Shown one piece after another: positions 7,119 through 26,873 of a stretch of 64,000 nucleotides of DNA. A program made the translations under genes and the position numbers. Position 1 is the stretch's first letter; each line of letters opens with the position of its first letter. The notes under the pieces were generated by a model. That model saw only the letters and a list, made by a program, of their open reading frames with translations, ran no database searches and had not been told where the DNA came from. The stretch covers positions 124,001-188,000 of the forward strand of contig CALURC010000005.1 of the NCBI GenBank assembly GCA_944323075.1, read 5' to 3'. This DNA is from an uncultured Alistipes sp. Its GTDB lineage: Bacteria; Bacteroidota; Bacteroidia; Bacteroidales; Rikenellaceae.

Positions 7119-7137
7119 ACTTGATAGATATCACATG

Positions 7138-8022: not shown

Positions 8023-8036
8023 GGTCTGTTTTCGTT

Positions 8037-8828
8037 TTATAGATAGAATGCGACACCGAGTCCGATCGAGAAGATGTTGACCTTAAAGTTCATCATACTG
8101 CTGGATCGTTCACCGACGGTCACTTGGTTGTGTACTTGTTTGACGTGGTTGTAGGAGATACCCATAACACCGACATTTACTTCGATGGCCATGTTGTTGG
8201 TGGCAAAAGCTACCAGTCCGGGCGAGATGCCGAGAGACATGAGAAATCCGGTTTCATAGGTGCCTCTCACGGGTGTGTCAGCGGCGAATTTAGCTTGGGA
8301 TCCGCCCAATCCGAGTTGCATCTCAGTGAACAGGGCGAAACGCTTGCTGTTGCCGAAAGGTACATATTGTCGCCAGATTACAGCTCCTTCATAAGAGTGG
8401 CTGAGTGCATAATAGGAGTCAGCCGACAGGTTGATTCCGGTGTCTTCATCTCCGAGTTTGATTTCCGCCTTGTCGATTTTCAAGAACGTTCTCGAATAGG
8501 TAAAGCGGCCTCCGAGCGCCATATTCTTTTTCAGAGCATAGGCCAATACGGGCGTTACTTTTACGGTGTGTCCGACTGAATTGATGCCTTCGACAACGAT
8601 GAATGTATAGTTGTCGTTCGTATGGGTCGAGAACGAAGCCGACGTTCCGGCAATCCATTGTCCTTTCGGTACGAATGTGTTGCTCATACTGATCAGTCCT
8701 CGTTTCTTTTTGGTTTGATGGATTATTCCCTTTTCCGAAACAAGGGTATCGACTGGAGCTTTTGCTGCCAGTCGATGTCCCGCAATGAGAAAGCAAATCA
8801 GTGTAAGAAAAACTATTGGGTTTTTCAT
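8037..8828 (-). CDS. Outer-membrane beta-barrel protein (paralogue 2)
   Basis: 263 residues: signal peptide (about 1-22), a short linker, then a barrel of roughly 12 amphipathic strands (for example WIAGTSASFSTH and KKNMALGGRFTYSR) ending in IGLGVAFYL, a typical outer-membrane C-terminus with aromatic and aliphatic residues. It is homologous to the product of the following gene. It starts 9 nt after the DUF4493-PCMD gene, so translation is probably coupled. A pore or assembly-platform role is inference only. Confidence 0.75.
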   Translation of the reverse strand: MKNPIVFLTLICFLIAGHRLAAKAPVDTLVSEKGIIHQTKKKRGLISMSNTFVPKGQWIAGTSASFSTHTNDNYTFIVVEGINSVGHTVKVTPVLAYALKKNMALGGRFTYSRTFLKIDKAEIKLGDEDTGINLSADSYYALSHSYEGAVIWRQYVPFGNSKRFALFTEMQLGLGGSQAKFAADTPVRGTYETGFLMSLGISPGLVAFATNNMAIEVNVGVMGISYNHVKQVHNQVTVGERSSSMMNFKVNIFSIGLGVAFYL

Positions 8829-8837
8829 GCAGTGCGT

Positions 8838-11033: not shown

Positions 11034-11061
11034 CGTTGTCAACATTTGATATTGGATAGAT

Positions 11062-12864: not shown

Positions 12865-12900
12865 GGCGAATGTATTTTTTACGAAGAAATGAAATTATAT

Positions 12901-13680
12901 CTATTCGGCATCGGGATTAAGTTCGACGTCTATGGGGTCGGCGGTGATCAGCGAGTCGTTGAACAGAATATTGATCGACACTTCGTTGGCTTCACCTGCA
13001 TCTATTGTGATGGTATGCCATGTGCGGGTTGCGGTAGTTCCGATTTCGGTCTCTTGAAACTCGATTTCGACACCGTTTGTTTTGGTGGCTTTTCCGCTTA
13101 AAAACAGTTTGGTTCCGGCTTTGATGAAAATCGGATCGGTTTCGGAGACCGGTTTGTCGAAGGTGGTCTGAAGACCCGATTCGGTCCGAACGGTAAATTC
13201 ATAGTCGGTAAAATATTTCATGAACCAATCGGTGCAGGTCAGAGAATAGATCGAATTAGCTAAAGCCAGACTGACAGGTTGTGTTATCGTTTTACGGGCA
13301 ACGATCGTAAAATCAGTACTTCCTGTGAAGTAGCATGCATTCGGACCTTCTTGATTTATGTCTCCGTAGGAAAAGGCGGCGTTGTAGCTCCCTTCAGTCA
13401 GAAGAGGTTGGTCATAGTCAGACATGACTTCATATGATCCGACAACTCCAATATCGCTCGAAAGGACTAGCGACAGTTGTTCTGTCGGGGGAATACATTC
13501 AGAGGGTAGTTCTCGTTGGGGATCGGCTTTCGATGTGGCGATTTCATCGACGGTACCGGAGATCGAGCAGGTAAAAGCGACCGCACCTTGTCCGTTTCCC
13601 GGATCGGAGACATCGTTTTTAGAGCATCCGCAAAGGAACGTTGCAGCGGTTAGCAGAGTTGCGTAAATTTTTGTATTCAT
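12901..13680 (-). CDS. DUF4493-domain surface lipoprotein (259 aa)
   Basis: A short lipoprotein (lipobox LCGC, Cys about 19) consisting of one DUF4493 domain only: beta-strand-rich, with GAVAFTCSISG near the start, a EGSYNAAFSYGD segment and TRTWHTITIDAGEANEVSI near the end. This resembles the N-terminal domain of the next two genes downstream. It lies 41 nt after the fimbrillin-like gene and 36 nt before the 600-residue DUF4493 gene. The single-domain form might be a minor subunit or a cap; that is inference. Confidence 0.75.
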   Translation of the reverse strand: MNTKIYATLLTAATFLCGCSKNDVSDPGNGQGAVAFTCSISGTVDEIATSKADPQRELPSECIPPTEQLSLVLSSDIGVVGSYEVMSDYDQPLLTEGSYNAAFSYGDINQEGPNACYFTGSTDFTIVARKTITQPVSLALANSIYSLTCTDWFMKYFTDYEFTVRTESGLQTTFDKPVSETDPIFIKAGTKLFLSGKATKTNGVEIEFQETEIGTTATRTWHTITIDAGEANEVSINILFNDSLITADPIDVELNPDAE

Positions 13681-13721
13681 AGTATAATTTATCTTTTTCC
13701 GGTTTGTAGTTTAATGATGTT

Positions 13722-15581
13722 TTAAGGTATGATCGAAACTTTGATGTTGTCTATGTAGATGTAGGTCCGTCCTGCTGTAATTGTAGAGAGACCTTGTCCA
13801 TCAACACGAAATGAAGCTCTCCAAGATAAACGATGTTGGTTGGTACAATCGGTGACGGTGATATCGCGGTGAACCGGTAAATTTGTATAACTGCCATCCG
13901 TTCCGGGTTCTTCGTTATCGATAAACACATTTTCGATACTATTATCGTCTCCGTTCAGGGCTCCCGTTTTTGTATCGGTTCCGAAACCGTATCGGGAGTA
14001 CATAACAGTAGTTTTACCCAATATGGTATTCCCGTTCTTTTTAGTGCCGCCTACATCGTACGAGACACGGAGTGATACATTAGCTCCGTCTTTTAAACCC
14101 GATAAGAACGGAGTATCAATCCGCCCTCGATGGTTATCGCCTCCGTCAGGGTCGGTAAGAACGGAAGATCCCAAATATCCGAAGATCATGGCGGAGGTAT
14201 TTGCTTGAAGCCCGAATCGTGAACCGGACCATCCCGACAAATTGTATGAATCCAGCTCTTTGGTGTCGTTGGTTTCGTCTTGAGCACTTATAGAGCTGAA
14301 ATCTTCGTAAAATAAGTAAGGGACTGTAAGGTTTATCGAATTTCGGCCATTCGCCGTAAAAGAGAGTTGCTTTTTCTCAGATACAACGGCATGTTCCGAG
14401 TCGTATGTTATAGTTGTTATTCCGTTTTTAATCAGATCTCCGTTGTTTATCCCATCTATTTCGTTGTAGAATCCCAGAGAGTATGTGTTGGATGAGTTGA
14501 CGGTAAAAGTTTGTTCATTCGTTCCATTACGGAAGGTGGCGCCTTCCGGAGCTGTAACTGTAAATGTATTAGGTGTTTCTCCTAAATTGTTTCCGGCGAT
14601 TGAAAAGTCGATCCACGTAACGGGTAATTCATCCGGTACGGTCAGTGTAATCGGGGTGATCGCACCTGCTGCCATCGTCTTGTTAACCGTTGTTGACAGC
14701 GAATTCGACTGGTATCCGTTTGCATCGTAGGCCGTAAAACGGATCGTCCCGTTGACTGTCGTTGGGCAGATGAATACCCATACATAACAACCATTTGCCG
14801 CATCCTCTTCCGATTCGGTTAATGGCTCTTTCAATTCGACGTTGATTGTATTGCTTCCTTCTGTGAGTGTCGGTATGGCAGTTGGGTCTGTTAGGTCCAG
14901 TTCCATTTTGCCCACTACTGCTGTCGGAAATTCGATGCGTAATTTTTGAACATTTTCACCCCATTGATTTCGTCCTGTAGGAACCTGTATCCGCAGTACA
15001 TGGCATTGATGATGAAAATTCATACCCAATGTTTCGCCATTGTGAAGGGCCGATGCTGTTTGCGGATCCGCAATCATGATATCGAGATTGCCTTTGTACG
15101 AATCATAGGTATTGGGGTCTGTAATGTCGTAGTTCCGCATGTCGTAAGAGCCATCTTGTAAGGCAGGCAGCGTATAGGTAACGTGTGTTCCATCGATTGA
15201 TTCGGGATTTGGATAAGCTCCGTAATAGGTGTAATTGGCTTCTGGTTGAGCGGGCATTGTCGCACTGAAAAGCGTTTCATCGGGATATGGCCGATAGAAG
15301 GAAAACAGCTGTGACGATAGAGGCTCGACACTTTCTGCCGGTTTGTAATAGATCATGATCTGGTCCAATTCACACCAATCAGTCTTGTCCAGCGATTCAC
15401 CGCCTATAACGGTTTTGGTTGAGAAATCCGGAACAGAAGTTTCTCCGTTTTGGTAAGCCCGGATATATACGTTTCCTTCTTGGTATGAAGGATACTCGCT
15501 GTAGTTATCGTTTTTGGAACACCCGGATCCGAGCAATAGAAGGGCGATGAGAGAAGATATGGTAGTTTTTTGCAATGTCAC
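13722..15581 (-). CDS. Fimbrillin-like surface lipoprotein, first gene of the operon
   Basis: 619 residues with lipobox GSGC (Cys about 21). The N-terminal half (about 35-320) follows the fimbrillin/Mfa-like pattern: a TKT segment followed by W-containing and DQIMIYY strands, Y-rich segments with YPNPES, and a terminal strand pair (VNKTMAAGAITPITLTV). The C-terminal half (about 410-619) is a separate beta-sandwich with a YEDFSSIS motif and YIYIDNIKVS at the very end, similar in shape to carbohydrate-binding or jelly-roll modules and comparable in position to the PCMD domains downstream. It is the first gene after the putative promoter at 15679-15686. Fimbrillin assignment is from pattern, not from a search. 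Confidence 0.65.
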   Translation of the reverse strand: MTLQKTTISSLIALLLLGSGCSKNDNYSEYPSYQEGNVYIRAYQNGETSVPDFSTKTVIGGESLDKTDWCELDQIMIYYKPAESVEPLSSQLFSFYRPYPDETLFSATMPAQPEANYTYYGAYPNPESIDGTHVTYTLPALQDGSYDMRNYDITDPNTYDSYKGNLDIMIADPQTASALHNGETLGMNFHHQCHVLRIQVPTGRNQWGENVQKLRIEFPTAVVGKMELDLTDPTAIPTLTEGSNTINVELKEPLTESEEDAANGCYVWVFICPTTVNGTIRFTAYDANGYQSNSLSTTVNKTMAAGAITPITLTVPDELPVTWIDFSIAGNNLGETPNTFTVTAPEGATFRNGTNEQTFTVNSSNTYSLGFYNEIDGINNGDLIKNGITTITYDSEHAVVSEKKQLSFTANGRNSINLTVPYLFYEDFSSISAQDETNDTKELDSYNLSGWSGSRFGLQANTSAMIFGYLGSSVLTDPDGGDNHRGRIDTPFLSGLKDGANVSLRVSYDVGGTKKNGNTILGKTTVMYSRYGFGTDTKTGALNGDDNSIENVFIDNEEPGTDGSYTNLPVHRDITVTDCTNQHRLSWRASFRVDGQGLSTITAGRTYIYIDNIKVSIIP

Positions 15582-15678
15582 GTTTTTTACATTTGTCGTT
15601 TGCGGTATCGGGTTTTTTACGTCCGTTGCCGTAGCATAACAGCATAACCGTTACGGGTTAACAATCTAATTTAAGGGG

Positions 15679-15686
15679 CAAATGTA
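15679..15686 (-). promoter_or_regulatory. Putative -7 box of the surface operon
   Basis: The minus strand reads TACATTTG, a match to the Bacteroidota -7 element, about 98 nt upstream of the fimbrillin-like start. No TTTG at the usual -33 spacing. The 90-nt leader shows no clear hairpin terminator. The rest of 15582-15819 holds nothing else I can identify. Confidence 0.45.
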
Positions 15687-15819
15687 GCCTGTTTTGTTAT
15701 GTTTTATGTTACGTAAAACGCAGAGGCTAAAAAAAAGTTACAACAGGATATAGAAAAACATTCGTCACCCAAAGATTAATTTAGGTGACGAATGGAGTTG
15801 TTTTGATATGGAGGGGGAA

Positions 15820-16644
15820 CTATTGTTTCGCAGCTTTATCGAAAAATTTTTTGAAGAAAAGCCATTGATAGTCGAGCGAGTTGTTCCAATAGGTTGCATT
15901 ATGAGTTCCCGGACGTACCAGATAGTCGTGATCGATTCCCCGTTCAAGCAGTTTGTCGTGGAAGTTTTTGTTGACCTCGAAGAAGAAGTCATCGTAGCCG
16001 CAATCGATGATAATTGCCAGTTCACCGTTTTCCAGTTGATCGACCAGATTGATGACCGTATGTTTGTCCCACACTTCTCGGTTGGACTCCATATCGCCGA
16101 GAGCATCAGCCATGTTCCAATTCTCGGGAAAGGGGCGGATGTCGACACCGCCGCTGGTGGAGCCTGCTGCTCCGAAGTGGTCGCTGTGACGGATGGAGAT
16201 CCACAAGGCTCCGTGTCCACCCATACTCAATCCTGTGATAGCGCGTCCAGTCCTGTCGTTGATCGTTGGATAGTGCTGGTCGATGTAGTCCGGTAGTTCC
16301 TGGGATACAAATGTTTCATAGCGCATGGTGGGGTTAACTGGACTATTCCAATACCAACTGTTCTCTCCGTCAGGACAAACTACAATAATCCCGTCTCTGT
16401 CGGCCATTTCAGGCAGTTCCGGTTTTACATGGATCCAATTATATTCGTCTCCGCCATGTCCATGGAGCAGATAAATGACAGGGAATTGGGCGGACTGATC
16501 CGATGTCTCGGGGGCGATGACGATAACGGGAATCTCTTTGTTCATCGATGCACTGTGAACCTTCAGTGTATCGATGGTTGCACCCTGAAGAGAAGCGGTC
16601 GTACAAAGTACAAAAACAAAAATAAAAATTTGTGTGATTTTCAT
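15820..16644 (-). CDS. Secreted alpha/beta-hydrolase esterase (esterase D / feruloyl esterase type)
   Basis: 274 residues with a signal peptide (about 1-21, MKITQIFIFVFVLCTTASLQ then A). The PF00756 esterase fold is supported by an oxyanion-type block FPVIYLLHGHGGDE, the nucleophile elbow GLSMGGHGAL, an acidic residue in DCGYDDFFFE and the catalytic His in RPGTHNATYW. The family includes S-formylglutathione hydrolases and polysaccharide deacetylases/feruloyl esterases; an exported Bacteroidales version most likely removes acyl groups from glycans. It is transcribed alone, divergent from the trpB gene, with a -7 box at 16672-16679. No sugar-degradation operon surrounds it. Confidence 0.88.
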   Translation of the reverse strand: MKITQIFIFVFVLCTTASLQGATIDTLKVHSASMNKEIPVIVIAPETSDQSAQFPVIYLLHGHGGDEYNWIHVKPELPEMADRDGIIVVCPDGENSWYWNSPVNPTMRYETFVSQELPDYIDQHYPTINDRTGRAITGLSMGGHGALWISIRHSDHFGAAGSTSGGVDIRPFPENWNMADALGDMESNREVWDKHTVINLVDQLENGELAIIIDCGYDDFFFEVNKNFHDKLLERGIDHDYLVRPGTHNATYWNNSLDYQWLFFKKFFDKAAKQ

Positions 16645-16671
16645 GTTCCAAAATGTAAACTAATCTCCTAA

Positions 16672-16679
16672 CAAAGGTA
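16672..16679 (-). promoter_or_regulatory. Putative -7 box of the esterase gene
   Basis: TACCTTTG on the minus strand, 27 nt before the esterase start codon; no clear -33 box. It is divergent from the plus-strand promoter at 16701-16728. Confidence 0.45.
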
Positions 16680-16700
16680 AAAAAATAGTCGTAAAAGATA

Positions 16701-16728
16701 TTGCTTCCGTAAAAAATACCTACATTTG
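16701..16728 (+). promoter_or_regulatory. Putative promoter of the trpB2 leader
   Basis: TTG (16701-16703) followed after 17 nt by TACATTTG (16721-16728). The -7 box matches the Bacteroidota consensus; the -33 spacing is a little short. Transcription would begin near 16735, giving a leader of about 200 nt before trpB. Confidence 0.5.
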
Positions 16729-16734
16729 CAAAGA

Positions 16735-16903
16735 TGTACGATCCTCTAAAGAGGTGATGGAGTATAGAGTCTGAAAGATCGGGAAGAGTTGAAGTACACA
16801 AGGTATAGGGGTGTTCCGATCGATAAGTGGAGGTCGTAAAGATATTTAGTCGAAGACTAACGGGATGATTGATAGGCTGTCGGCTATCCGACGGCTTTTT
16901 TTG
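16735..16903 (+). ncRNA. Structured leader RNA upstream of trpB2 (candidate attenuator)
   Basis: Between the promoter and trpB lie about 200 nt without a gene. They contain CCTC/GAGG (16743-16754), a long hairpin GATCGGGAA (16777-16785) with TTCCGATC (16814-16821, one bulged G), a perfect TTAGTC-GAA-GACTAA hairpin (16846-16860), and then an intrinsic terminator (16876-16902). No short reading frame with tandem Trp codons was found, so classical ribosome-mediated trp attenuation is not supported. It could be a ligand- or tRNA-sensing leader, or an independent small RNA. A Bacteroidota leader motif at trp genes (Bacteroid-trp) has been described from comparative genomics; I could not confirm a match. 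Confidence 0.5.
16876..16902 (+). terminator. Intrinsic terminator inside the trpB2 leader
   Basis: GCTGTCGG (16876-16883) pairs with CCGACGGC (16888-16895) around a CTAT loop, followed by seven T. It is 35 nt upstream of the trpB start codon, the position expected of a regulatory attenuator. Confidence 0.8.
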
Positions 16904-16937
16904 TGAGTGAAAATCGAAATGATAAAATAAATAGAAA

Positions 16938-18308
16938 ATGAGTACGAAGACCAAACGATTTATTCTTCCGGAGAGTGAAATTCCAACACAGTGGTATAAT
17001 ATCGTGGCTGATATGCCGAACAAGCCGCTGTTGCCGTTGAATCCCAAAACGCGTCAACCGCTTCAGGCATCGGATCTCTATCCGATTTTTGCTAAAGCGT
17101 TGGCTCAGCAGGAGATGAACCAGACGGACGCGTGGATTGATATTCCAGAGCCGGTTCGGGAACAATATAAGAATTATCGGTGTACTCCTCTTGTACGAGC
17201 TTATGAGTTGGAAAAAGCCTTGGGAACTCCGGCACACATCTATTTCAAGAATGAAAGTGTTAGTCCGATCGGATCACATAAGCTGAATTCGGCATTGGCC
17301 CAGGCCTACTTTTGCAAGCAGGAGGGAATTACGAATATAACTACCGAAACGGGAGCCGGACAGTGGGGAGCTGCACTCTCTTATGCAGCTAAAGCATTCG
17401 GATTGGAATTGGCTGTATATATGGTCAAAATCAGTTACGAGCAAAAACCTTATCGTCGTTCGATTATGCAGACGTTCGGAGCTCAAGTAACGGCTTCGCC
17501 ATCCATGTCGACCAAGGCCGGCCGGAAGATATTGACCGAACATCCCAACCATCAAGGATCGCTTGGAACGGCGATCTCAGAAGCCATAGAGTTGGCTATG
17601 AATACACCGAATTGTAAATACACGTTGGGCTCAGTGTTGAATCATGTGACTTTGCATCAGACGATTATCGGTTTGGAAGCTGAAAAACAAATGGCCCTGA
17701 CCGGTGAATATCCGGATATGGTGATCGGTTGTTTCGGCGGAGGATCGAATTTCGGAGGCATTTCGTTCCCGTTCATGCGGCACAATTTGAAATCGGGAAA
17801 GAAAACGCGTTTTATTGCAGCTGAACCCGATTCTTGTCCAAAACTGACGCGAGGAGTGTTCCGTTATGATTTCGGTGATGAGGCAGGTTATACTCCGTTG
17901 TTGCCTATGTTTACTTTGGGACATAATTTTGCTCCGGCGAATATTCATGCCGGAGGATTGCGTTATCACGGCGCGGGAACGATTGTCTCTCAGTTATTGA
18001 AAGACAAGATGATGGAGGCTGTTGATATTCCGCAGTTGGAGAGCTTCCAGGCTGGATGTTTGTTTGCTCAGACCGAAGGTATCATTCCTGCTCCTGAATC
18101 GTGTCATGCGATCGCAGCAACGATCCGCGAAGCAAACAAGTGCAAAGAGAGCGGTGAAGAGAAGGTTATCTTGTTCAACCTGTCAGGACACGGATTGATC
18201 GATATGGCGTCATACGATAAGTTTCTGGCTGGCGATTTGGTAAACTATTCGCTCAGTGATGAGGTAATTAACGAGAATATCAAAGAACTCGACGATATGC
18301 TCAAGTAG
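16938..18308 (+). CDS. trpB: TrpB2-type tryptophan synthase beta chain (PLP enzyme)
   Basis: 456 residues, longer than the usual 390-400-residue TrpB1 and carrying the TrpB2 N-terminal extension. The PLP lysine is in GSHKLNSALAQ (about 115); the phosphate-binding loop is GCFGGGSNFGG. Other family blocks are ETGAGQWG and GLRYHGAGT. The enzyme condenses indole with L-serine to give tryptophan; TrpB2 proteins often act without a TrpA partner and may salvage free indole. No trpA or other trp gene is adjacent, which supports a stand-alone salvage role. Expression is probably controlled through the structured leader and terminator immediately upstream. Confidence 0.92.
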   Translation: MSTKTKRFILPESEIPTQWYNIVADMPNKPLLPLNPKTRQPLQASDLYPIFAKALAQQEMNQTDAWIDIPEPVREQYKNYRCTPLVRAYELEKALGTPAHIYFKNESVSPIGSHKLNSALAQAYFCKQEGITNITTETGAGQWGAALSYAAKAFGLELAVYMVKISYEQKPYRRSIMQTFGAQVTASPSMSTKAGRKILTEHPNHQGSLGTAISEAIELAMNTPNCKYTLGSVLNHVTLHQTIIGLEAEKQMALTGEYPDMVIGCFGGGSNFGGISFPFMRHNLKSGKKTRFIAAEPDSCPKLTRGVFRYDFGDEAGYTPLLPMFTLGHNFAPANIHAGGLRYHGAGTIVSQLLKDKMMEAVDIPQLESFQAGCLFAQTEGIIPAPESCHAIAATIREANKCKESGEEKVILFNLSGHGLIDMASYDKFLAGDLVNYSLSDEVINENIKELDDMLK

Positions 18309-18333
18309 GAAGGGCCCGATCGAAAAGAGATTT

Positions 18334-18410
18334 TATATTTGCATAGCGCGAAGCGAAGGGTAGTGGATATGCCATGGTGTTCCACAAAAACTTCGCTTCG
18401 TGTGTTTTTT
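18334..18410 (+). terminator. Long hairpin with U-tract after trpB; possible small RNA
   Basis: CGAAGCGAAG (18349-18358) pairs perfectly with CTTCGCTTCG (18391-18400), extendable by three pairs, with an inner GTGGA/TCCAC stem (18363-18367 and 18381-18385) and six T at 18405-18410. It lies 38 nt after the trpB stop and can serve as its terminator. A TATATTTG (-7-like) box at 18334-18341 is placed just before the hairpin, so a separately transcribed RNA of about 60-65 nt is possible. From 18411 to 18551 I see nothing. Confidence 0.6.
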
Positions 18411-18551
18411 AGAATAGATGAATGGTCTTCGGAGTGTGTATGTTGATGATCCAGTCTTTTATTTGTTGATCTAATCAGACGAACGATTAAAGGTGTTCAT
18501 AAGTCGGGTATTGTGGCATGTGTGTAGATTGTGATTGTAAAATATAAAAAA

Positions 18552-18577
18552 GGGGCGAACCTTGAAAGTGTCGCCCC
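18552..18577. terminator. Bidirectional terminator between trpB and the mscS-like gene
   Basis: GGGGCGA (18552-18558) and TCGCCCC (18571-18577) form a stem with a 12-nt loop, flanked by A-run and T-run, so it can terminate transcription from either side. It lies 34 nt past the stop of the minus-strand mscS-like gene and ends that operon. Confidence 0.8.
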
Positions 18578-18610
18578 TTTTTGCTGTGGATACTGGTTCA
18601 ATCCAGCCAT

Positions 18611-19516
18611 TTACTGATGAATGTGTACGTCCATTTGCGGGTAAGGAATGTTCAGTCCGACAACGGCAAATTGTTTGTAAACTTTTTCATTCATATCGAA
18701 GAAAACATCCCAGAAATTTCCTGTGCTGGTCCATGCCCGCACGACAATGTTTACAGAACTGTCTCCGAGGCTCGACAGTGCGATAAAATAGGCCGGATCT
18801 TTCAGTACACGTTCGTCTTGATCGAGCATCGAGGCGATTGTCGCCTTGGCCAAATCATAGTCGTCTCCGTATCCGATACCGAAAGTCCACTCGACGCGTC
18901 GTATACTCTCTTTTGAGTAGTTGTTAATGATCCCGGTGGAGATACCGCCGTTGGGGATCATGATGGTTTTGTTGTCGGTTGTGTTAATTACGGTATTAAA
19001 GAGTTGAATCTCTTTGACAGTCCCGGTTTGACCCTGTGCTTCGATGAAATCACCTACCCGGAACGGTTTGAAAATAAGAATCATTACACCACCTGCAAAA
19101 TTTTGCAATGTGCCGCTCAGTGCCATACCGATGGCTAAACCTGCCGATGCAAAGATTGCAACGAACGATGTGGTGTCGATCCCCAAGACGCCGATAATGA
19201 CGATAATCAGGAATAGGGTGAGCGTAATGCTGACCAGATTCAGCAGGAAGCTTTTGAGCGAAGCCTCGACCGATCGCCGTTCCATCATACGGCGTAATAT
19301 TCTCTTTAGGTAACGGATGATCCAACGGCCGATGAAAAAGATAGCTACGGCAATCAGGACTCGTGCCGACAGGTTGAGCACCCATTTGATCACCATGCTG
19401 GTCAGTTCTTCCGTTGACATTTGTGAGAGATTTTGGATTTTTTGTACCAGAATCTCTTTGTGAAGCGTGTCTGCAACGGCTTGCGATGCAGCGACTAGGG
19501 TGTAAAGCGATAACAT
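18611..19516 (-). CDS. MscS-family mechanosensitive channel
   Basis: 301 residues. After an N-terminal segment, membrane spans lie at about 45-65, 85-110 and 115-135; the pore-lining TM3 has the small-residue pattern FASAGLAIGMALSGTLQNFAGG. The beta domain follows (RVGDFIEAQGQTGTVKEI; PNGGISTGIINNYS) and then the C-terminal cytoplasmic domain. Such channels release solutes on hypo-osmotic shock. It is the last gene of the operon with the steroid-type reductases, 31 nt after the second dehydrogenase and before the bidirectional terminator. Small-conductance MscS homologues are 280-300 residues, so this is full length. A role in solute or steroid movement is not supported by sequence alone. Confidence 0.9.
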   Translation of the reverse strand: MLSLYTLVAASQAVADTLHKEILVQKIQNLSQMSTEELTSMVIKWVLNLSARVLIAVAIFFIGRWIIRYLKRILRRMMERRSVEASLKSFLLNLVSITLTLFLIIVIIGVLGIDTTSFVAIFASAGLAIGMALSGTLQNFAGGVMILIFKPFRVGDFIEAQGQTGTVKEIQLFNTVINTTDNKTIMIPNGGISTGIINNYSKESIRRVEWTFGIGYGDDYDLAKATIASMLDQDERVLKDPAYFIALSSLGDSSVNIVVRAWTSTGNFWDVFFDMNEKVYKQFAVVGLNIPYPQMDVHIHQ

Positions 19517-19547
19517 GATTCGTGTATTTTTGAAAAAATTGTTTTTA

Positions 19548-20414
19548 TCATTGTTCAGGTGGCATCTGCAGACCTGTCAAGCGGAATAGTTCGTTTCGTA
19601 TTTCGGCTCTATAAGGATGGGTCAGTACGTGTTCTGAAATTTTTTTCGGTTTTTCACCCATCCAATAGAGGTTCGGTGTATTGGTTTCGTCCTTTGCGAT
19701 TGTTTCGTCTGTCGCGAGTTTCAAGGCCGTAGCGGCCCCCTTTTCCGGACTCTTGATCAGGGGGCGGAAAAGCAGGTCGGTAATCGGGTCGAACCATCGG
19801 TGCATGGTGATCATTCCCGTATCGACGACGCCTGGGTCAGCAGCGAATACCTCGATACCCCGATTGCGCAAAGTTCGTTCCAATTCGAGCGAGAAGAGCA
19901 AAAGGGCAAGTTTCGAATTCCCGTAACATTTGAATCGGGCGAAGTGCTCGCGGTCTACCTTCGTCCAGCCCGGACCGACTTGTCCGATGCGGTGTGTACA
20001 CGATAGCGTATTGATGATGCGACTGCCGGAGTGCATCAACGGAAGCAGAGAGAGGGTCAGTGCAGCAGTTCCGATGTAGTTGACAGCCGTGGTCATTTCG
20101 AAACCGTCTTGAGAGAGCCGAAACGAATCGTTCATCGATCCCGCGTTGTTGATCAATACGCTGATCGTTTCATCCCGTTGTTTCAGTAGCTCGGAGAATT
20201 GCCGTATGGAATCCAGCGAGGCGAGGTCGAGAGGTAGCAGTTCGAGCTCGGTGGCAGAACAGCGTTGCAGAATACGTTGCCGGATGGGTTCCGACTTTTT
20301 CAGGTCGCGGCAAGCCATGACCGTACGATATCCCCGGCGTAGCAGTTCGGTTGTGAGGACTTGTCCCATTCCGCCGCTCGCTCCCGTGACAATATATAGC
20401 GGTCTATTCTCCAT
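19548..20414 (-). CDS. Short-chain dehydrogenase/reductase, WWOX/retinol-dehydrogenase type
   Basis: 288 residues with the classical SDR features: NAD(P)-binding TGASGGMGQ (about 10-18), an Arg in MACRDLKK favouring NADP(H), NNAG (about 89-92), catalytic Ser in NTLSC and CYGNSK for the Tyr/Lys pair. The overall pattern, with PGVVDTGM after the active site, resembles retinol dehydrogenase / WWOX / protochlorophyllide-reductase-like SDRs that act on hydrophobic alcohols and ketones. It overlaps the preceding SDR gene by 11 nt and is followed by the MscS gene. In the setting of the 5-alpha-reductase-like gene, a hydroxysteroid dehydrogenase is the leading hypothesis; the carbon position and stereochemistry cannot be read from sequence. 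Confidence 0.82.
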   Translation of the reverse strand: MENRPLYIVTGASGGMGQVLTTELLRRGYRTVMACRDLKKSEPIRQRILQRCSATELELLPLDLASLDSIRQFSELLKQRDETISVLINNAGSMNDSFRLSQDGFEMTTAVNYIGTAALTLSLLPLMHSGSRIINTLSCTHRIGQVGPGWTKVDREHFARFKCYGNSKLALLLFSLELERTLRNRGIEVFAADPGVVDTGMITMHRWFDPITDLLFRPLIKSPEKGAATALKLATDETIAKDETNTPNLYWMGEKPKKISEHVLTHPYRAEIRNELFRLTGLQMPPEQ

Positions 20415-21216
20415 ATCGGTAAAATTTGGATTTGCGTTTAATCAGCCGTACAAGTGATGAAGGAAGCAGTTGCATGAGCGGAATGAAAAGGTGATTGAGT
20501 GCTCCGGGAATGATTCGTTTGCGGCGGGAAAACATCGCTTTGAGCGCTTTACGCGCGAGGGTTTCGGGACGCATCATGATCCCGAGCCGGATAGCTAACC
20601 GTTTGTACCGGTCACTCAGGTTATAGAGGTCCGTGGCGACGGCCCCCGGACAGACCACCGTAACCGAAACACCCGAATCGAAGAGCTCGTTGCGAAGGGC
20701 CACGGAAAACTGATGCAGATAGTTTTTGCTGGCAGCGTATATGGCGATACCCGGGAAAGGCATCCATGCCGACATCGATGACATGTTCAGGATGTACCCT
20801 TTGCCCCGTTTTTTCATTGCGCCGCCGAAGTAGTGGCACATCAGGGTTACGGTCCGTACATGCAGGTCGAGCATCAATTCGATCCGGCGGGTTTCTACCC
20901 TCACGACGTCATTGAAGAAAAAGACTCCGGCGTTGTTGATCAGGACCTCGATCGGGAGGCTGTTCTCTTCGCAATAGGTGAACAGTTCGCGGGCGGCATC
21001 GGGTAGGGACAGGTCCCGGTAAAGCGCAATGACTTTTGTGCCGTACTCCTTCTGCAGCTCCTCTCCGACCTCGGCGATACGCTCCGCTTCGTTGCTGACG
21101 ATGACCAGCGCATAGCCGCGTCCGGCCAACTGGCGGGCATACTGCAGACCTATTCCCGAACTGGCTCCGGTAACCAGAGCCCAGACTTGCGATGGGGGTG
21201 TGACGTTGTGGTTCAT
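20404..21216 (-). CDS. Short-chain dehydrogenase/reductase, 17-beta-HSD-12-like; candidate hydroxysteroid dehydrogenase
   Basis: 270 residues: TGASSGIGLQ (about 16-25) for cofactor, NNAG (about 93-96), catalytic Ser in MSSMSAW and Tyr-Lys in YAASKNY. The tail ALNHLFIPLMQLLPSS is hydrophobic and could associate with the membrane, as in the SDR12C hydroxysteroid dehydrogenase group. It starts inside the end of the OYE-family gene (4-nt overlap) and its own end overlaps the next SDR by 11 nt, so all three are translationally coupled. Known Bacteroidales bile-acid clusters pair a 3-beta-HSDH with 5-alpha and 5-beta reductases, and this gene is a good candidate for that role; the assignment is inference. 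Confidence 0.82.
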   Translation of the reverse strand: MNHNVTPPSQVWALVTGASSGIGLQYARQLAGRGYALVIVSNEAERIAEVGEELQKEYGTKVIALYRDLSLPDAARELFTYCEENSLPIEVLINNAGVFFFNDVVRVETRRIELMLDLHVRTVTLMCHYFGGAMKKRGKGYILNMSSMSAWMPFPGIAIYAASKNYLHQFSVALRNELFDSGVSVTVVCPGAVATDLYNLSDRYKRLAIRLGIMMRPETLARKALKAMFSRRKRIIPGALNHLFIPLMQLLPSSLVRLIKRKSKFYRYGE

Positions 21217-22436
21217 CTTCGTTTCAATTCACGGTTTATCTCTTTCTGAATGCAGGTCGGCAGGTCTTGCAAATGTTTGTGGCAAGCCATTTCGATCGAA
21301 TACATTCGGGCAATACAGTAGTTTACATGGTCGCAGCCGCAGCGCATTTCTCCTTCGTTTTTCATGCGGTTGACGAAGTCGGGCTCGTTGATCAGAGCAC
21401 GGGCCATTGCGACGCATTCGAATCCGCTGTCGAGAACCATGTCGATCTTTTCCCGTGAGACCAGCCCTCCTACGTAAACCAGCGGAAGTTTCAGTGCCTT
21501 GCGGAATTTCAGTGCATCTTCATAAAAATAGGCTTCGCGGAAGGGTTCGTCGTGGATCATCCAGCGTCCGGCCATACGCACACCCCACTTGAGCCACAGC
21601 TGTTTCATGTAGTAGGTCATCGAGCGGATTGGCATCCGTCCACGCATGACATACATCGGGGCCTTGCTGACGAAGCCTCCGCTGAGCACCAGAGCATGTA
21701 CGCCGCACTGCTCGATATTCCGCGCCACTTCAATGCAGTCGTCCGTTTCGAGACCTCCGCGGAACCCGTCGCTCATGTTGGTCTTTACCAGTACGGCCAT
21801 GTCGTTTCCGGCAGCGGTCATTGCTTCGTCCAGACACATTTTCATGAAACGCATCCGATTTTCTAGCGAACCTCCGTATTCATCCTTACGATGGTTTGTA
21901 TAGGGAGAAAGGAACTGGCTGATCAGATATCCGTGTCCGGCGTGTACCTCGACGGCATCGAAACCCGCTTCCCGAGCGAGGTTAACGGCCTGCCCGAAAG
22001 CTTTGGCTACATCGACGATTTCGTCGTGTCGCATACCGTGGACGAAAGTAGGAGAGTAGAGGTTAAACCCTGTCGAGGCTGATAGTGGTGTACACCCACA
22101 GATCGATCGGTGGGACATGTTGCCGCAGTGTCCGATTTGTATGCTGGCGGCGGCGCCTTCGGCATGGATGGCGTCGGTGATGCGTCTCAAACCCGGAATG
22201 ATCTCTTTCCGCAGCCAAAGTTGGTGGGGAAACGAGAGTCCGCTGCGGGTAACCGATGCGTAGGCGAGGGTAGTCATACCGATTCCTCCGGCTGCGACCT
22301 GACGGTGGTAATTATATAGCAGATCGGTCGGGGCGTTACCGGCTGCCATGCCTTCGAAAGCGGCGGCCCGTATGGTGCGGTTTCTCAGTGTCAGTGGACC
22401 GATCGTACAAGGGGTAAACAACAAGGATTCTTTCAT
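21213..22436 (-). CDS. Old Yellow Enzyme-family NADH:flavin oxidoreductase; candidate steroid 5-beta-reductase
   Basis: 407 residues forming a complete FMN TIM barrel: N-terminal LRNRTIRAAAFEG, the OYE block GYLISQFLSPYTNHR followed by DEYGGSLENR, and C-terminal YVGGLVSREK plus CVAMARALINEPD. The C-terminal FAD/NADH domain of 2-enoate reductases and BaiCD/BaiH is absent, so this is a barrel-only form. Near the C-terminus a cysteine cluster occurs (MRCGCDHVNYC, then MAC and PTC); its spacing differs from the usual CxxCxxxC iron-sulphur site, so a cluster is uncertain. OYE-family enzymes reduce the delta-4 double bond of 3-keto-steroids and bile acids. Sixty nt downstream of the 5-alpha-reductase-like gene. 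Confidence 0.82.
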   Translation of the reverse strand: MKESLLFTPCTIGPLTLRNRTIRAAAFEGMAAGNAPTDLLYNYHRQVAAGGIGMTTLAYASVTRSGLSFPHQLWLRKEIIPGLRRITDAIHAEGAAASIQIGHCGNMSHRSICGCTPLSASTGFNLYSPTFVHGMRHDEIVDVAKAFGQAVNLAREAGFDAVEVHAGHGYLISQFLSPYTNHRKDEYGGSLENRMRFMKMCLDEAMTAAGNDMAVLVKTNMSDGFRGGLETDDCIEVARNIEQCGVHALVLSGGFVSKAPMYVMRGRMPIRSMTYYMKQLWLKWGVRMAGRWMIHDEPFREAYFYEDALKFRKALKLPLVYVGGLVSREKIDMVLDSGFECVAMARALINEPDFVNRMKNEGEMRCGCDHVNYCIARMYSIEMACHKHLQDLPTCIQKEINRELKRR

Positions 22437-22496
22437 GGTAATATATCTTTCATTCTTGTGAATAATCTTTTCAGAACATCTCAGATGTGACAGTGT

Positions 22497-23267
22497 CTAA
22501 TATATAAAGGGGATGATTCTTTTGCGGGGCTTTTCTTTCAACTCTTCAGCAAACATTTCGTGGTAACGTTTGTAGATTGCATCCGAACGGGGAACGAGGT
22601 TGGCAAAAGTCCAGATCGCAAACACCGCACCTGCGGCCGACCATGTAAGTATGGCGAATCCGGTCCACTCGACGATTTCTCCGAAATAGTTCGCTGACGT
22701 GACGTAACGGAACATGCCCTTTTGAGGTAGGTAATGTTTTGTGTCTCCGGGTTTCCGCAGGTTTCTGATGACGTGGTCCGAATGGATATTGATGGCCATT
22801 CCGGTGAAAAAGACGAGGGTACCGATGATAAACTGCGGAGAGGTGAGCCATGCGTTCGTATAGTAGTTTTCCGGAGCGAAGTAAAAAATCCATCCGCCCT
22901 GCATGCAGGCGTTCAGGATGTTGAATACGACACCCATGATGATGATTCCGATTGGCATGGTGCTGTGTCCCTTGAGCAGGAGCGGGTAGATGAACGAGCG
23001 GTTCAGGTAGTGTAGCTGAAAGAGCCCGAAAAAGACAAGGCATGTAGCATCGCCGCGTCGAGTGGAGCATAGGCATAGTACGCACATTACGATGAAGACG
23101 GGAGCTTCCATTAGAACCCATCCCAACTTGTTATTGATTTGAGGGCCCCATTTTCCGTCGCGGAGCATGCCGTATCCGGCTCGCACAAAATAGAGGCAGA
23201 TAAAGACGATAACGGCACAAACCAGCATTGCCAAAAGAAAAATTCTGAATGTAGTGGGTTGGATCAT
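22497..23267 (-). CDS. Steroid 5-alpha-reductase-like membrane protein (SRD5A/DUF1295 family)
   Basis: 256 residues with about six membrane spans. Family features: HYLNRSFIYPL (about 95-105), GMAINIHSDHVIRNLRKPGD (about 156-175), the Y-x-P-x-G-MFRYVTSANYFGEIVEW block (about 178-200), and a C-terminal HEMF...IPFIY tail. This follows the 3-oxo-5-alpha-steroid 4-dehydrogenase domain (PF02544), in which conserved Glu, Tyr, Asn and His residues bind NADPH and the enone. The enzyme would reduce the delta-4 bond of a 3-keto-steroid from the alpha face. It is the first gene of the operon. Closest alternative: a DUF1295 protein with another lipid substrate. Confidence 0.85.
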   Translation of the reverse strand: MIQPTTFRIFLLAMLVCAVIVFICLYFVRAGYGMLRDGKWGPQINNKLGWVLMEAPVFIVMCVLCLCSTRRGDATCLVFFGLFQLHYLNRSFIYPLLLKGHSTMPIGIIIMGVVFNILNACMQGGWIFYFAPENYYTNAWLTSPQFIIGTLVFFTGMAINIHSDHVIRNLRKPGDTKHYLPQKGMFRYVTSANYFGEIVEWTGFAILTWSAAGAVFAIWTFANLVPRSDAIYKRYHEMFAEELKEKPRKRIIPFIY

Positions 23268-23519
23268 GATCGGTTGATATTATCTATTTGATTTATAGGA
23301 TAGGTGGCTATTCCCGATATGGGAAAAGTAGACACAAGGTACGTATTTTTTTGTGATATGTAAAAAATAAATGTTCTATTATGGGGTTTCTTAATTGGTT
23401 TTTGAACAATAAGGATATTCAGTGTGAAAGCTCGGTTATTTCGTTAAATGTTTTATTGGCTATAAACGGTGAACGCAGAAATCGAGATGCAAGTGGTTTG
23501 TGGAAAAATATCTGCTTTT
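23268..23519. other. Gene-free stretch upstream of the 5-alpha-reductase-like gene
   Basis: No gene, tRNA or repeat is visible. On the minus strand a degenerate TACTTTTC (23333-23340) might be the -7 element of the reductase operon, but one base differs from the consensus and no -33 box is present, so the promoter is not assigned. Confidence 0.4.
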
Positions 23520-23550
23520 TTTGCAGGGTTTGAAATTTTTATTACTTTTG
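23520..23550 (+). promoter_or_regulatory. Bacteroidota-type promoter upstream of exbB
   Basis: TTTG (23520-23523), 19 nt, TACTTTTG (23543-23550). Both boxes and the spacing fit the consensus. Transcription would start near 23557 and first meet the terminator at 23705-23746. Confidence 0.75.
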
Positions 23551-23556
23551 GGGGTT

Positions 23557-23746
23557 GTTTATTTTCTGAGGTGAAAATCCGTCCATTGAGACAGAAGTGT
23601 GAGTTCTTAATGAAACTATGTCAGGAAAAAGAAGGATATTTAGATTAAAATTTGAGGCAAGAAAGGATTTAAATTAGAGATAATTTACAGACATAGATAT
23701 AGATAAATCGAGGCGGATATGGTAATGTGAGTCCTCGATTTTTTTT
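23557..23746 (+). ncRNA. Candidate small RNA or attenuated leader upstream of exbB
   Basis: A promoter at 23520-23550 and an intrinsic terminator at 23705-23746 bracket about 190 nt with no credible reading frame. That is the layout of an independent small RNA, or of an attenuated exbB leader (a further TATATTTG box lies between the terminator and exbB, which favours the independent RNA). I could not match it to 6S or another named RNA. Confidence 0.5.
23705..23746 (+). terminator. Intrinsic terminator of the candidate small RNA
   Basis: AAATCGAGG (23705-23713) pairs perfectly with CCTCGATTT (23733-23741), followed by a T-run to 23746. Confidence 0.8.
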
Positions 23747-23797
23747 AAGACAAAGGATTTCATCGAAAAGTAACAACCGTGATAAGCGAAGAAAGTG

Positions 23798-23805
23798 TAT
23801 ATTTG
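23798..23805 (+). promoter_or_regulatory. Putative -7 box of the exbB operon
   Basis: TATATTTG matches the TAnnTTTG element 81 nt upstream of the exbB start and downstream of the terminator at 23705-23746. No -33 TTTG at the expected distance. Confidence 0.5.
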
Positions 23806-23886
23806 TACGGACAAAGAGACAACTTTTTACTAAAATTTTAACATAAAACTTTTTTAAACAAAACAAAAACTCAAAACTTTTTCACT

Positions 23887-24702
23887 ATGGAAGCCAAGTC
23901 AGTAAATTTCAAACAGGCAAAAGGCATCAAATCAGCGTTTCTGGTTATTGTATGCTGTTTTATTATAGCATTATGCTTGTTCATTTTCGTGTTCGGTGAT
24001 CCCGCGAACTTCATGAACAACGACCCCAACAACCACCCGCTGCCCGGAAACTTTAAAGGTACGATCTACAAAGGTGGTATTATCGTGCCGGTTCTTCAAA
24101 CATTGTTCCTTACGGTTATCGTATTGAGTATCGAACGTGCTTTCGCATTGATCCAAGCTAAAGGTAAAGGCAATGTCGTAAAATTCGTGAAAAACGTAAA
24201 AGCAGCTTTGGATGCGAATGATACGCAAAAAGCCCGTGAACTTTGTGTTAAACAAAAAGGTTGTGTTGCAAGTGTAATCTATTCTACTCTGACCAAATAC
24301 GAAGAGATGGAAAAAGATACGACTTTGGCAAAAGACCAAAAATTGATGAACATCCAAAAAGAGTTGGACGAAGCAACCGCTCTGGAAATGCCTTCGCTGC
24401 AACAAAACCTGGTGGTGATTGCAACCATGACTACGCTGGGTACTTTGGTCGGACTGTTGGGAACTGTGATCGGTATGATCCGTGCATTCGCCGCTTTGTC
24501 TAATGCTGGTGCTCCTGACTCAGTCGCTCTGTCAGCCGGTATTTCTGAGGCCCTTATCAATACCGCATTCGGTATCGCAACCGGTGCCCTCGCCGTTATT
24601 TCTTACAACTTCTTCTCGAGTAAAATCGACAAACTTACTTACAGCATCGACGAAGTAGGATTTACCATTGTTCAGACTTATGCTGCAACTCACAAAGCCT
24701 AA
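23887..24702 (+). CDS. exbB: ExbB/TolQ-type proton channel subunit
   Basis: 271 residues of the MotA/TolQ/ExbB family. Spans lie at about 16-36, 62-82, 178-200 and 215-238; the paired TM segments with TLGTLVGLLGTVIGMIRAF and SEALINTAFGIATG form the channel. With ExbD it uses the proton gradient to energise TonB. It is the first gene of the cluster and is followed after 26 nt by the first exbD. A 65-residue linker between TM1 and TM2, including the NNDPNNHPLPGNF segment, is a Bacteroidota-type feature. Confidence 0.93.
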   Translation: MEAKSVNFKQAKGIKSAFLVIVCCFIIALCLFIFVFGDPANFMNNDPNNHPLPGNFKGTIYKGGIIVPVLQTLFLTVIVLSIERAFALIQAKGKGNVVKFVKNVKAALDANDTQKARELCVKQKGCVASVIYSTLTKYEEMEKDTTLAKDQKLMNIQKELDEATALEMPSLQQNLVVIATMTTLGTLVGLLGTVIGMIRAFAALSNAGAPDSVALSAGISEALINTAFGIATGALAVISYNFFSSKIDKLTYSIDEVGFTIVQTYAATHKA

Positions 24703-24728
24703 CAATTAAAAAATAACAGTTTTTCGTT

Positions 24729-25337
24729 ATGGCTAGAGTAAAAGTAAAAAAACAGAGTACATTCATCGACATGACGGCGATGAGTGATGTCACTGTGCTT
24801 TTGCTTACCTTCTTCATGTTGACATCGACTTTTATCCAGAAAGAACCGATTCAGGTGAGTACACCGTCTTCGGTCATGGAGACAAAGATTCCGGAAATCA
24901 ATATCCTCCAAATCTTGGTGGACGATGATGGAAAAGTGTTCATGAGTCTGGATAAACAAGAAGACCGAGTCGCCGTGTTGCAAAAGATGGGCGAAGAGTA
25001 CGGTATATCATTCACGGATGAGGAGATCAACAAGTTTCGTTTGTCTCCATCGTTCGGAGTATCGATCAGTCAGATGAAATCATTCCTTGCTCTTCCTTCC
25101 GAACAGCAGGATGCAGTTCTGAAAGATTACGGAATTCCGATCGACAGTACGGATAACCAGCTGAAAGCTTGGGTTAAGAATGCTCGTTCACAGAACAAAG
25201 AGCTGTGTATAGCAATCAAGGCCGATCAGAAAACTCCGTTCCCTATAATCAATACGATCATGACGTCGCTTCAGGATATTCGTGAAAACCGTTATAACCT
25301 GATTACGACCTTGAAAGTGGTAAGTGATAATAATTAA
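24729..25337 (+). CDS. exbD: ExbD/TolR-type subunit (first copy)
   Basis: 202 residues: a short cytoplasmic N-terminus, one membrane span (about 21-41) holding the conserved acidic residue in DMTAMSDVTVLLLTFFML, and a periplasmic domain. The Asp is the proton-binding residue of the family. The periplasmic part (about 45-202) is longer than the E. coli ExbD domain (141 residues in total). It lies 21 nt before a second exbD, as is usual in Bacteroidota. Confidence 0.92.
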   Translation: MARVKVKKQSTFIDMTAMSDVTVLLLTFFMLTSTFIQKEPIQVSTPSSVMETKIPEINILQILVDDDGKVFMSLDKQEDRVAVLQKMGEEYGISFTDEEINKFRLSPSFGVSISQMKSFLALPSEQQDAVLKDYGIPIDSTDNQLKAWVKNARSQNKELCIAIKADQKTPFPIINTIMTSLQDIRENRYNLITTLKVVSDNN

Positions 25338-25358
25338 TGTCGGCACAATCTAAATAAT

Positions 25359-26024
25359 ATGGCTGAAATTCAAGAAAATAACAGCGGTAAAGACGACGGC
25401 AAAAAAGGCAAACAGAAGAAAATGACCATTCGAGTCGATTTTACCCCGATGGTCGATATGAACATGTTGCTGATTACGTTCTTCATGCTCTGTACGTCGC
25501 TGAGTAAACCTCAGACAATGGAGATCAGTATGCCGTCGAAGGATGCGACAGAGGAAGAACAAACCAAACTGGCTGCATCCCGTGCCGTTACATTGCTGTT
25601 GGGCGAAGACGATAAAGTGTATTACTATTTCGGAGAGCCCAACTATGCAGACTATACTTCGCTGAAAGAGACCACCTATGAACCTGACGGTTTGCGTGCG
25701 ATTCTCTTGGCGCGGAATAGCAATGTTGTGGCACAAGTAAGAGAACTCAAACAAAAGCTGCAAAACCATGAAATTACAGAAGAGGAGTTTAAAGCTCAGT
25801 CAACCGAAATTAAAAAGGATGACAGTGCTCCGGTAGTTTCGATTAAAGGTACAGACGCAGCAAGCTACAAGAATCTGGTTGACGCATTGGATGAAATGCA
25901 GATTTGCGACATCAGCCGTTATGCCATCGTTCCTTTATCAGAAGGCGATTCATGGTTGATCGAGAATCTTAAATCTGGCGGAGATCTAGGTAGAAACAGT
26001 GATTTTGGACAACAAACTAATTAA
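25359..26024 (+). CDS. exbD: ExbD/TolR-type subunit (second copy)
   Basis: 221 residues. A Lys/Gly-rich N-terminus (about 1-25) precedes the span with DFTPMVDMNMLLITFFML (about 29-46), including the conserved Asp. The periplasmic domain contains a charged insertion (about 125-150). It is clearly a paralogue of the preceding gene; two different ExbD subunits probably form a hetero-dimer inside the ExbB ring. It is 21 nt from both neighbours. Confidence 0.92.
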   Translation: MAEIQENNSGKDDGKKGKQKKMTIRVDFTPMVDMNMLLITFFMLCTSLSKPQTMEISMPSKDATEEEQTKLAASRAVTLLLGEDDKVYYYFGEPNYADYTSLKETTYEPDGLRAILLARNSNVVAQVRELKQKLQNHEITEEEFKAQSTEIKKDDSAPVVSIKGTDAASYKNLVDALDEMQICDISRYAIVPLSEGDSWLIENLKSGGDLGRNSDFGQQTN

Positions 26025-26045
26025 TGCACATTAAATCGAAAAACA

Positions 26046-26873
26046 ATGAGTGACTTTGATTTGAATTCGAAACAGTGGTGCGAATTAGTTTTTGATGGAA
26101 AGAATCATGACTTCGGTGCATATAGAATGCGCGAGTCGTCTACTTCCCGTCATAACAAGGCAATGATTATCGTGCTGATTGCAGTGATTCTCATCTTAAC
26201 ATTGCCTAAGTTGATTAGCTATGTCGTACCTGAAAAGGAGGTGAAAATTGAAATGACTCAAACTGTACAGCTTGAGAAACTTCCACCTCCCGAAGTGAAA
26301 AATAACGATGTAATTAAAAAGGCTGAAGCTGCGCCACCTCCTCCATTGAAGAGTACCATCAAATTTACCGCACCGAAGATCGTGAAAGACGAAGAGGTCG
26401 GTGAAGAGGATGTGAAAACTCAGGATGAGTTGCTTTCATCATCAACTGCAATTTCAGTAGCCGATGTCAAAGGTAACGACGATGAGTTCGGTATGGATAT
26501 CGCAGATGTCGGTGAAATTGCACTCGATACTCCGCAAGAAGAGGTCGAAGAAGAGATCTTCATGTCGGCAGAGCAGCCTCCTATGTTCCCCGGTGGAATG
26601 GAAGCTTTGATGAAATATCTGAATGATAACATTATTTATCCAGTGATCGCATTGGAGAATGGTGTCTCTGGTACTGTTGTTTTGAAATTTGTCGTTTCCA
26701 AAACAGGTAAAATTGATGATATTCAAGTGGTGAATTCAGTTGACCGAGCTTTGGATGAAGAGGCAGTACGGGTTGTTTCAAAAATGCCCGATTGGCAACC
26801 TGCTAAACAAAACGGTAATAATGTTGCTGTTTATTTCAACCTACCCGTGCGTTTCGTGATAGGTCAGAAGTAA
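26046..26873 (+). CDS. tonB: TonB energy transducer
   Basis: 275 residues: cytoplasmic N-terminus, one span (about 38-56), a periplasmic linker with proline groups (KLPPPE, APPPPLK) and a very acidic stretch (about 118-178), then the TonB C-terminal domain (about 185-275) with PMFPGGMEALMKYL, YP and SGTVVLKFVVSKTGKI. It transmits the ExbBD-derived force to TonB-dependent (SusC-type) outer-membrane transporters. The linker is Glu/Asp-rich rather than the Pro-Lys-rich type of E. coli. A terminator follows (26893-26930). Confidence 0.93.
   Translation: MSDFDLNSKQWCELVFDGKNHDFGAYRMRESSTSRHNKAMIIVLIAVILILTLPKLISYVVPEKEVKIEMTQTVQLEKLPPPEVKNNDVIKKAEAAPPPPLKSTIKFTAPKIVKDEEVGEEDVKTQDELLSSSTAISVADVKGNDDEFGMDIADVGEIALDTPQEEVEEEIFMSAEQPPMFPGGMEALMKYLNDNIIYPVIALENGVSGTVVLKFVVSKTGKIDDIQVVNSVDRALDEEAVRVVSKMPDWQPAKQNGNNVAVYFNLPVRFVIGQK

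Follow-up and report, generated by a model that had tools for sequence, protein, structure and literature searches.

The window, a 64,000-nt stretch of the genome of an uncultured Alistipes sp., contains at 18611-23267 a run of five minus-strand genes. They encode a predicted steroid 5-alpha-reductase (AR), a flavin enzyme of the OYE family (OYE), two short-chain dehydrogenases (SDR1 and SDR2), and a small-conductance channel (MscS) (Table 1). AR and OYE are separated by 60 nt, OYE and SDR1 overlap by 4 nt, SDR1 and SDR2 overlap by 11 nt, and MscS follows SDR2 after 31 nt. A previous sequence-only reading of this DNA had given these open reading frames, overlaps, and gaps, and all are exact. 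The main Pfam match of each gene is above its cut-off and agrees with the family named in that reading. The conserved unit is AR-OYE-SDR1-SDR2 (19548-23267), and MscS is not a stable member of it. From the gene families, catalytic residues, gene order, and co-occurrence established below, this unit is very probably a Bacteroidota steroid A/B-ring isomerization cluster, which would interconvert bent and flat forms of bile acids and steroids.

Genes of the cluster

The source genome (2.54 Mb in 19 contigs) has one Steroid_dh gene, one OYE gene, which the search reports in two parts that belong to one frame, and 14 adh_short matches, of which 13 exceed the cut-off. The named organism closest to it is Candidatus Alistipes merdigallinarum (L002; Rikenellaceae), with an AR 96% identical to that of the window.

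AR scores 150.5 bits with Steroid_dh (cut-off, 22.6). It can be aligned over almost its whole length with two solved proteins, 7c83 (E = 4.4e-58; AR residues 7-255 on 7c83 residues 12-257) and 7bw1 (E = 1.8e-41), which are bacterial PbSRD5A and human SRD5A2, a hormone reductase, respectively. The homology to characterized steroid reductases on which the sequence-only reading depended is thus readily detected. E54, Y87, N160, D164, R168, R171, E197, and R227 are invariant in 109/109 aligned rows, and N193 is kept in 108; these rows are not all independent, because they include the window itself and some loci fetched twice. E54 and Y87 align with the human catalytic Glu and Tyr (E57 and Y91), and the NADPH-site residues (Asn, Asp, Arg, and Glu) are also conserved. 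The one difference from the solved proteins is position 53, which is Met in all of the AR rows but Gln in both 7c83 and 7bw1. AR is predicted from these similarities to reduce 3-oxo-delta-4 steroids to the 5-alpha form.

The catalytic residues are kept in both SDRs, as expected from the classical motifs that had been read in them. In SDR1, the NNAG motif, S147, Y160, and K164 are invariant in 22/22 chosen rows, and in SDR2, N89, N90, A91, S138, Y164, and K168 are invariant in 25/25, the window being included in both sets; the larger earlier alignments had 32 and 43 rows. Judged by profile scores, SDR1 and SDR2 are in different, widely separated subgroups. SDR1 of Ca. A. merdigallinarum scores 419 bits with its own profile vs 75 with the other SDR profile, and SDR2 scores 388 vs 54 bits. 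We infer that the pair is not the result of a recent duplication. Assignment of SDR function from solved structures was tried and rejected. The PDB matches listed (the best 60 of 560 and the best 60 of 180) are all generic SDRs, and for this reason the stereochemistry at C3 is not derivable from structures.

OYE had been described as barrel-only. This is correct for its domain content, but the protein has an extra C-terminal segment with three invariant cysteines, C-x5-C-x10-C, at residues 366-385. When structures are compared, long multi-domain OYEs align with it as far as residue 407, whereas with most short OYEs the alignment ends near 364. The long relatives carry an Fe-S cluster, and the cysteines of this OYE are possibly a degenerate Fe-S site, one that lacks the FAD domain by which it is usually fed.

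Conservation of the cluster

Related loci were taken as the best 80 of 165, with the window excluded from the architecture counts; three of the 80 reach a contig end before any partner could show, leaving 77 uncut. OYE lies within 1.6 kb downstream of AR in 62/80 loci, and SDR2 directly follows AR in six. The full AR-OYE-SDR1-SDR2 order is present in 14 loci, among them Coprobacter, Butyricimonas, Sanguibacteroides, and Odoribacter, and in Odoribacter laneus YIT 12061 it is identical to that of the window. Thus, the second SDR, which had been read as a possibly undescribed addition, is not special to this locus and is found in other genera as well. AR-OYE-SDR1 without SDR2 accounts for 14 loci. 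At one locus (L074, 10121-11709), a tandem pair of SDR1-type genes follows AR-OYE, in the position that SDR1 and SDR2 take elsewhere.

The Parabacteroides and Bacteroides loci have a different form. Of the five Parabacteroides loci (not P. merdae), whose ARs are 64-67% identical to that of the window, four are AR-OYE-SDR2 and one is AR-SDR2. SDR2 is the only SDR type adjoining AR in the loci fetched from these two genera; SDR1 adjoins AR in none of the loci labeled as Parabacteroides or Bacteroides among the 80, and all of these have SDR2 except one with AR alone (L072). On an AR tree made with FastTree, which has many weak forks, at least 12 changes are needed for OYE, 11 for SDR1, and eight for SDR2, among 78, 75, and 75 scored rows, respectively. 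The many changes in presence suggest that parts of the cluster have been gained and lost often.

Among 150 genomes of the family, AR is present in 97 (in one of them, G035, as a fragment with a stop), OYE, called at E ≤ 1e-60, in 92, and both in 91 (Fisher p = 2.7e-32, ignoring kinship). The distance between AR and OYE is at most 503 nt, with a median of 29, in 88 of the 91. This adjacency is more than chance, and the operon-like layout that had been claimed is supported. In the three other genomes, AR and OYE are 6.7 kb apart (G041), 9.8 kb apart (G063), or on different contigs (G033). The first two are of the window's genus, and there the cluster is split, with AR about 7-10 kb from OYE (L114, 2128-11700, and L115, 2078-13000). 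OYE is present as two overlapping frames in one locus (L062, 8848-10093), which may reflect gene decay or a sequencing error, and the OYE match has one internal stop in three genomes (G131, G115, and G139).

What is the function of MscS in the cluster? An orthologue (60-100% identical) is present in 7/9 genomes of the genus, the source genome counted; the two without it are 69% (G074) and 79% (G069) complete. By coordinates, the orthologue is next to the cluster in four of the seven (G000, G028, G008, and G057) and away from it in the other three (G049, G063, and G041). Its co-directional position 31 nt downstream of SDR2, and its adjacency in the four genomes, would be consistent with a functional part in the cluster, such as release of steroid products or protection from detergent stress. 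We consider such a part very unlikely. It was rejected as the default on the ground that three of the seven genomes have the orthologue unlinked to the cluster; furthermore, an MscS of the window's type is seen only in L002 and L003 among the 80 loci, although several loci end early. For the same reason, MscS, which the sequence-only reading also named as a possibly undescribed addition, is not special. The preferred view is that it is a general osmotic channel located downstream of the cluster by chance.

The other genes flanking the cluster are included in Table 1. At 5472-15581 is a co-directional run of surface-protein-like genes with DUF4493 and PCMD domains. The gene for a TrpB-like PLP enzyme is convergent with the end of MscS. 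Divergent from the cluster is a gene with a Pfam match for a MotA/TolQ/ExbB proton channel, which is likewise divergent from AR in L002, L003, and L085. It is followed by genes that, by reading only, look like two ExbD-like genes and one TonB-like gene.

Table 1. Features of the window in and near the cluster. Coordinates are positions in the window.
Feature	Coordinates	Strand	Length	Match	Assignment
AR	22497-23267	minus	256 aa	Pfam Steroid_dh, 4.6e-44	predicted SRD5A-type 5-alpha-reductase
OYE	21213-22436	minus	407 aa	Pfam Oxidored_FMN, 3.1e-57	putative 3-oxo-steroid 5-beta-reductase/delta-4 dehydrogenase
SDR1	20404-21216	minus	270 aa	adh_short, 8.8e-42	classical short-chain dehydrogenase, putative 3-hydroxysteroid dehydrogenase
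SDR2	19548-20414	minus	288 aa	adh_short, 4.7e-25	second SDR subgroup, candidate 3-beta-hydroxysteroid dehydrogenase
MscS	18611-19516	minus	301 aa	MS_channel_2nd, 8.2e-20	small-conductance channel, probably passenger
Surface-protein run	5472-7118	minus		PCMD	
Surface-protein run	7138-8022	minus		no Pfam match	
Surface-protein run	8037-8828	minus		no Pfam match	
Surface-protein run	8838-11045	minus		DUF4493, PCMD	
Surface-protein run	11062-12864	minus		DUF4493	
Surface-protein run	12901-13680	minus		DUF4493	
Surface-protein run	13722-15581	minus		no Pfam match	
TrpB-like gene	16938-18308	plus		NF009057, 700.9 bits (cut-off, 366)	TrpB-like PLP enzyme
ExbB gene and following genes	23887-26873	plus		Pfam MotA/TolQ/ExbB (first gene)	proton channel; by reading only, two ExbD-like and one TonB-like gene

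Proposed reactions and substrates

The substrates, the direction, and the division of labor between the SDRs are proposed from homologues. An SDR would oxidize a 5-beta (bent) bile acid at its 3-hydroxyl group, and OYE, acting as a flavin-dependent dehydrogenase, would then yield the 3-oxo-delta-4 intermediate. In the reverse direction, OYE would reduce this intermediate to the 5-beta form. AR, with NADPH, would reduce the intermediate to the 5-alpha (flat) 3-oxo compound, and an SDR would reduce the 3-keto group of this compound to the 3-beta alcohol, the isoallo form.

The best question at this locus is which of SDR1 and SDR2, if either, has the 3-alpha and which the 3-beta role, and the one-SDR and two-SDR forms of the cluster can be set side by side to tell the C3 dehydrogenases apart. 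We propose that SDR2 is the better candidate for a 3-beta-hydroxysteroid dehydrogenase (3-beta-HSDH), because the one-SDR clusters of the genera with reported makers of isoallolithocholic acid (isoalloLCA) carry SDR2. In that case, SDR1 might be a 3-alpha-HSDH, or its substrate might be a different steroid. A more speculative idea, which we hold to be rather doubtful, is that the four genes are sufficient in themselves for ring flipping, and that SDR1 and SDR2 were separately recruited for opposite C3 stereochemistry, with 3-alpha entry and 3-beta exit. If so, a single operon would carry a 3-alpha-hydroxy 5-beta bile acid all the way to the 3-beta-hydroxy 5-alpha isomer, with no need for unlinked genes, and the one-SDR clusters would need a partner gene elsewhere. 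However, SDR1 also serves alone in the 14 loci without SDR2, which argues somewhat against strict pairing of entry and exit.

Several observations weigh against the assignment of the locus as an isomerization cluster for bile acids. OYE scores 180 bits with the BaiCD equivalog (NCBIfam NF041087), vs a cut-off of 825. The match is limited to residues 6-262 of the 407 in OYE, whereas the model has 642 positions. OYE resembles BaiCD and the Clostridium hormone 5-beta-reductases (ci2350) in its OYE/FadH-type flavin barrel and in the Tyr (Y170) of the catalytic motif. However, it has G169 and Q174 (motif positions counted by eye from the shared Tyr, the ci2350 sequence itself being outside the comparison), and thus has the active-site letters of neither Clostridium clade, which are N and S for the hormone clade and Y/S and E for the bile clade (PMC12238238). 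The proposed 5-beta activity therefore rests on the neighborhood of OYE. In addition, AR has no adjoining partner in 9/80 loci and so may work alone.

The cluster is presumably co-transcribed, but no promoter can be named for it, and no promoter or terminator site supports a single transcript. There is no Rfam family in 15000-25000. Sigma-70-like sites number nine, vs a mean of 7.9 in shuffled sequences, and terminator-like sites one, vs 6.3. The Bacteroidota-type promoter pattern has four matches in the window, a count reached by 7/100 shuffles, and the sole match near AR (23520-23550) is on the plus strand.

Finally, the main substrate may be something other than bile acids, given relatives labeled as from ruminant stomach chambers. 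Seven loci have such titles: L019 (abomasum) and L080 (omasum) are AR-OYE-SDR1, L042 (reticulum) is AR-OYE, and L031, L043, and L047 (rumen) have only AR; L061 (rumen) is cut. OYE is thus present in three of the six uncut loci and AR is alone in the other three, vs OYE in 62/77 uncut loci overall. Three loci with RUG in their names, which denotes rumen genomes, were left out of this count; OYE is present in L041 and L051, L038 being cut, and with them the fraction is 5/8. Four loci presumably of digester or unclear origin (L057, L060, L065, and L074) were also kept out. These ruminant chambers are not known to receive bile, so AR should have other substrates there. The ruminant loci are few and related, L031 and L043 being close on the AR tree, and sample labels of metagenome-assembled genomes are weak evidence of habitat.

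It is a serious possibility, though somewhat short of an even chance, that the natural substrates of the same enzymes are 3-oxo-delta-4 steroids from diet or plants, sterols, or hormones, with bile acids as one of several. The ruminant loci are consistent with this, as are the membership of 7bw1 in the family of AR and the AR-SDR2 locus of Bacteroides reticulotermitis, a termite-gut species. Against it, sample labels do not prove habitat, and the window's genome has a gene of the choloylglycine hydrolase family. This gene scores 210.6 of 600 bits with the penicillin V amidase equivalog and 205.4 of 350 bits with that for choloylglycine hydrolase; with near-equal scores, both under the cut-offs, its assignment as a bile salt hydrolase was rejected. 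Furthermore, the assays cited in reviews used bile acids and found activity.

Could the cluster instead act on a lipid of the bacterium itself, a fatty or isoprenoid enone, with steroid reduction as a side activity? A distant solved relative of AR, 22of (E = 5.8e-07), is a probable very-long-chain enoyl-CoA reductase, AR also matches DUF1295 (30.7 bits vs a cut-off of 20.4) along with a PEMT match under its cut-off, and in L077 an acyl-ACP thioesterase adjoins the lone AR. However, the steroid 5-alpha-reductases match AR far better, and AR is not essential, since it was not found in 17/99 good-quality genomes of the family. Neighbors were scanned as ten proteins from eight loci: lone-AR loci L017, L031, L047, L076, and L077, AR-SDR2 loci L054 and L060, and the full cluster L006. 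They comprise HPPK, PCMD, TPM, and Lnb domains, a diaminopimelate dehydrogenase, a flavoprotein, an acyl-ACP thioesterase, an FMN reductase, TrkH, and a glycosyltransferase. They differ among the five lone-AR loci scanned (of nine) and have no common theme, so that another conserved pathway beside the lone AR was rejected. The conserved association with a different lipid pathway that would have spoken against the sequence-only reading is thus not seen in these neighbors, and we regard a native lipid as the true substrate as very unlikely.

Comparison with known clusters

Steroid isomerization remains the preferred assignment, and clusters of this kind are already known; the locus is a good example in a little-studied Alistipes relative rather than a new system. 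A Bacteroidota bile-acid cluster of 5-alpha-reductase (5AR), 5-beta-reductase (5BR), and 3-beta-HSDH genes was reportedly described by Sato et al. and by Li et al. in 2021, whose work is known here through reviews. According to one review, the 5AR gene lies in a cluster with one for a predicted 3-beta-HSDH and one for an NADH:flavin oxidoreductase, disruption of 5AR in P. merdae abolishes the allolithocholic acid derivatives, isoalloLCA is made by O. laneus strains, and B. dorei is also named (PMC10382948). The O. laneus strain with this activity may differ from YIT 12061. Further reviews describe Bacteroidota 5AR/5BR/3-beta-HSDH clusters in much the same way, and Alistipes sp. appears among the bearers of 5-alpha-reductase in a 2026 review (PMC12789469). 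According to reviews, flat bile acids like isoalloLCA inhibit Gram-positive pathogens (PMC10382948), and they also promote regulatory T cells. A complete cluster in Alistipes relatives helps to predict the makers of these compounds.

The BaiP/BaiJ 5-alpha-reductases of Firmicutes, compared here by description, are alike in the kind of reaction, but they are reported to be confined to Firmicutes and distinct from the membrane 5-alpha-reductases of Bacteroidetes. The match to the known Bacteroidota clusters put forward from the sequence is upheld. AR adjoins an NADH:flavin oxidoreductase and an SDR, the gene families are the same, and the order is that of O. laneus YIT 12061. The locus differs from the fetched Parabacteroides and Bacteroides clusters, which have at most one SDR, of the SDR2 type, by AR, in that it has both SDR1 and SDR2.
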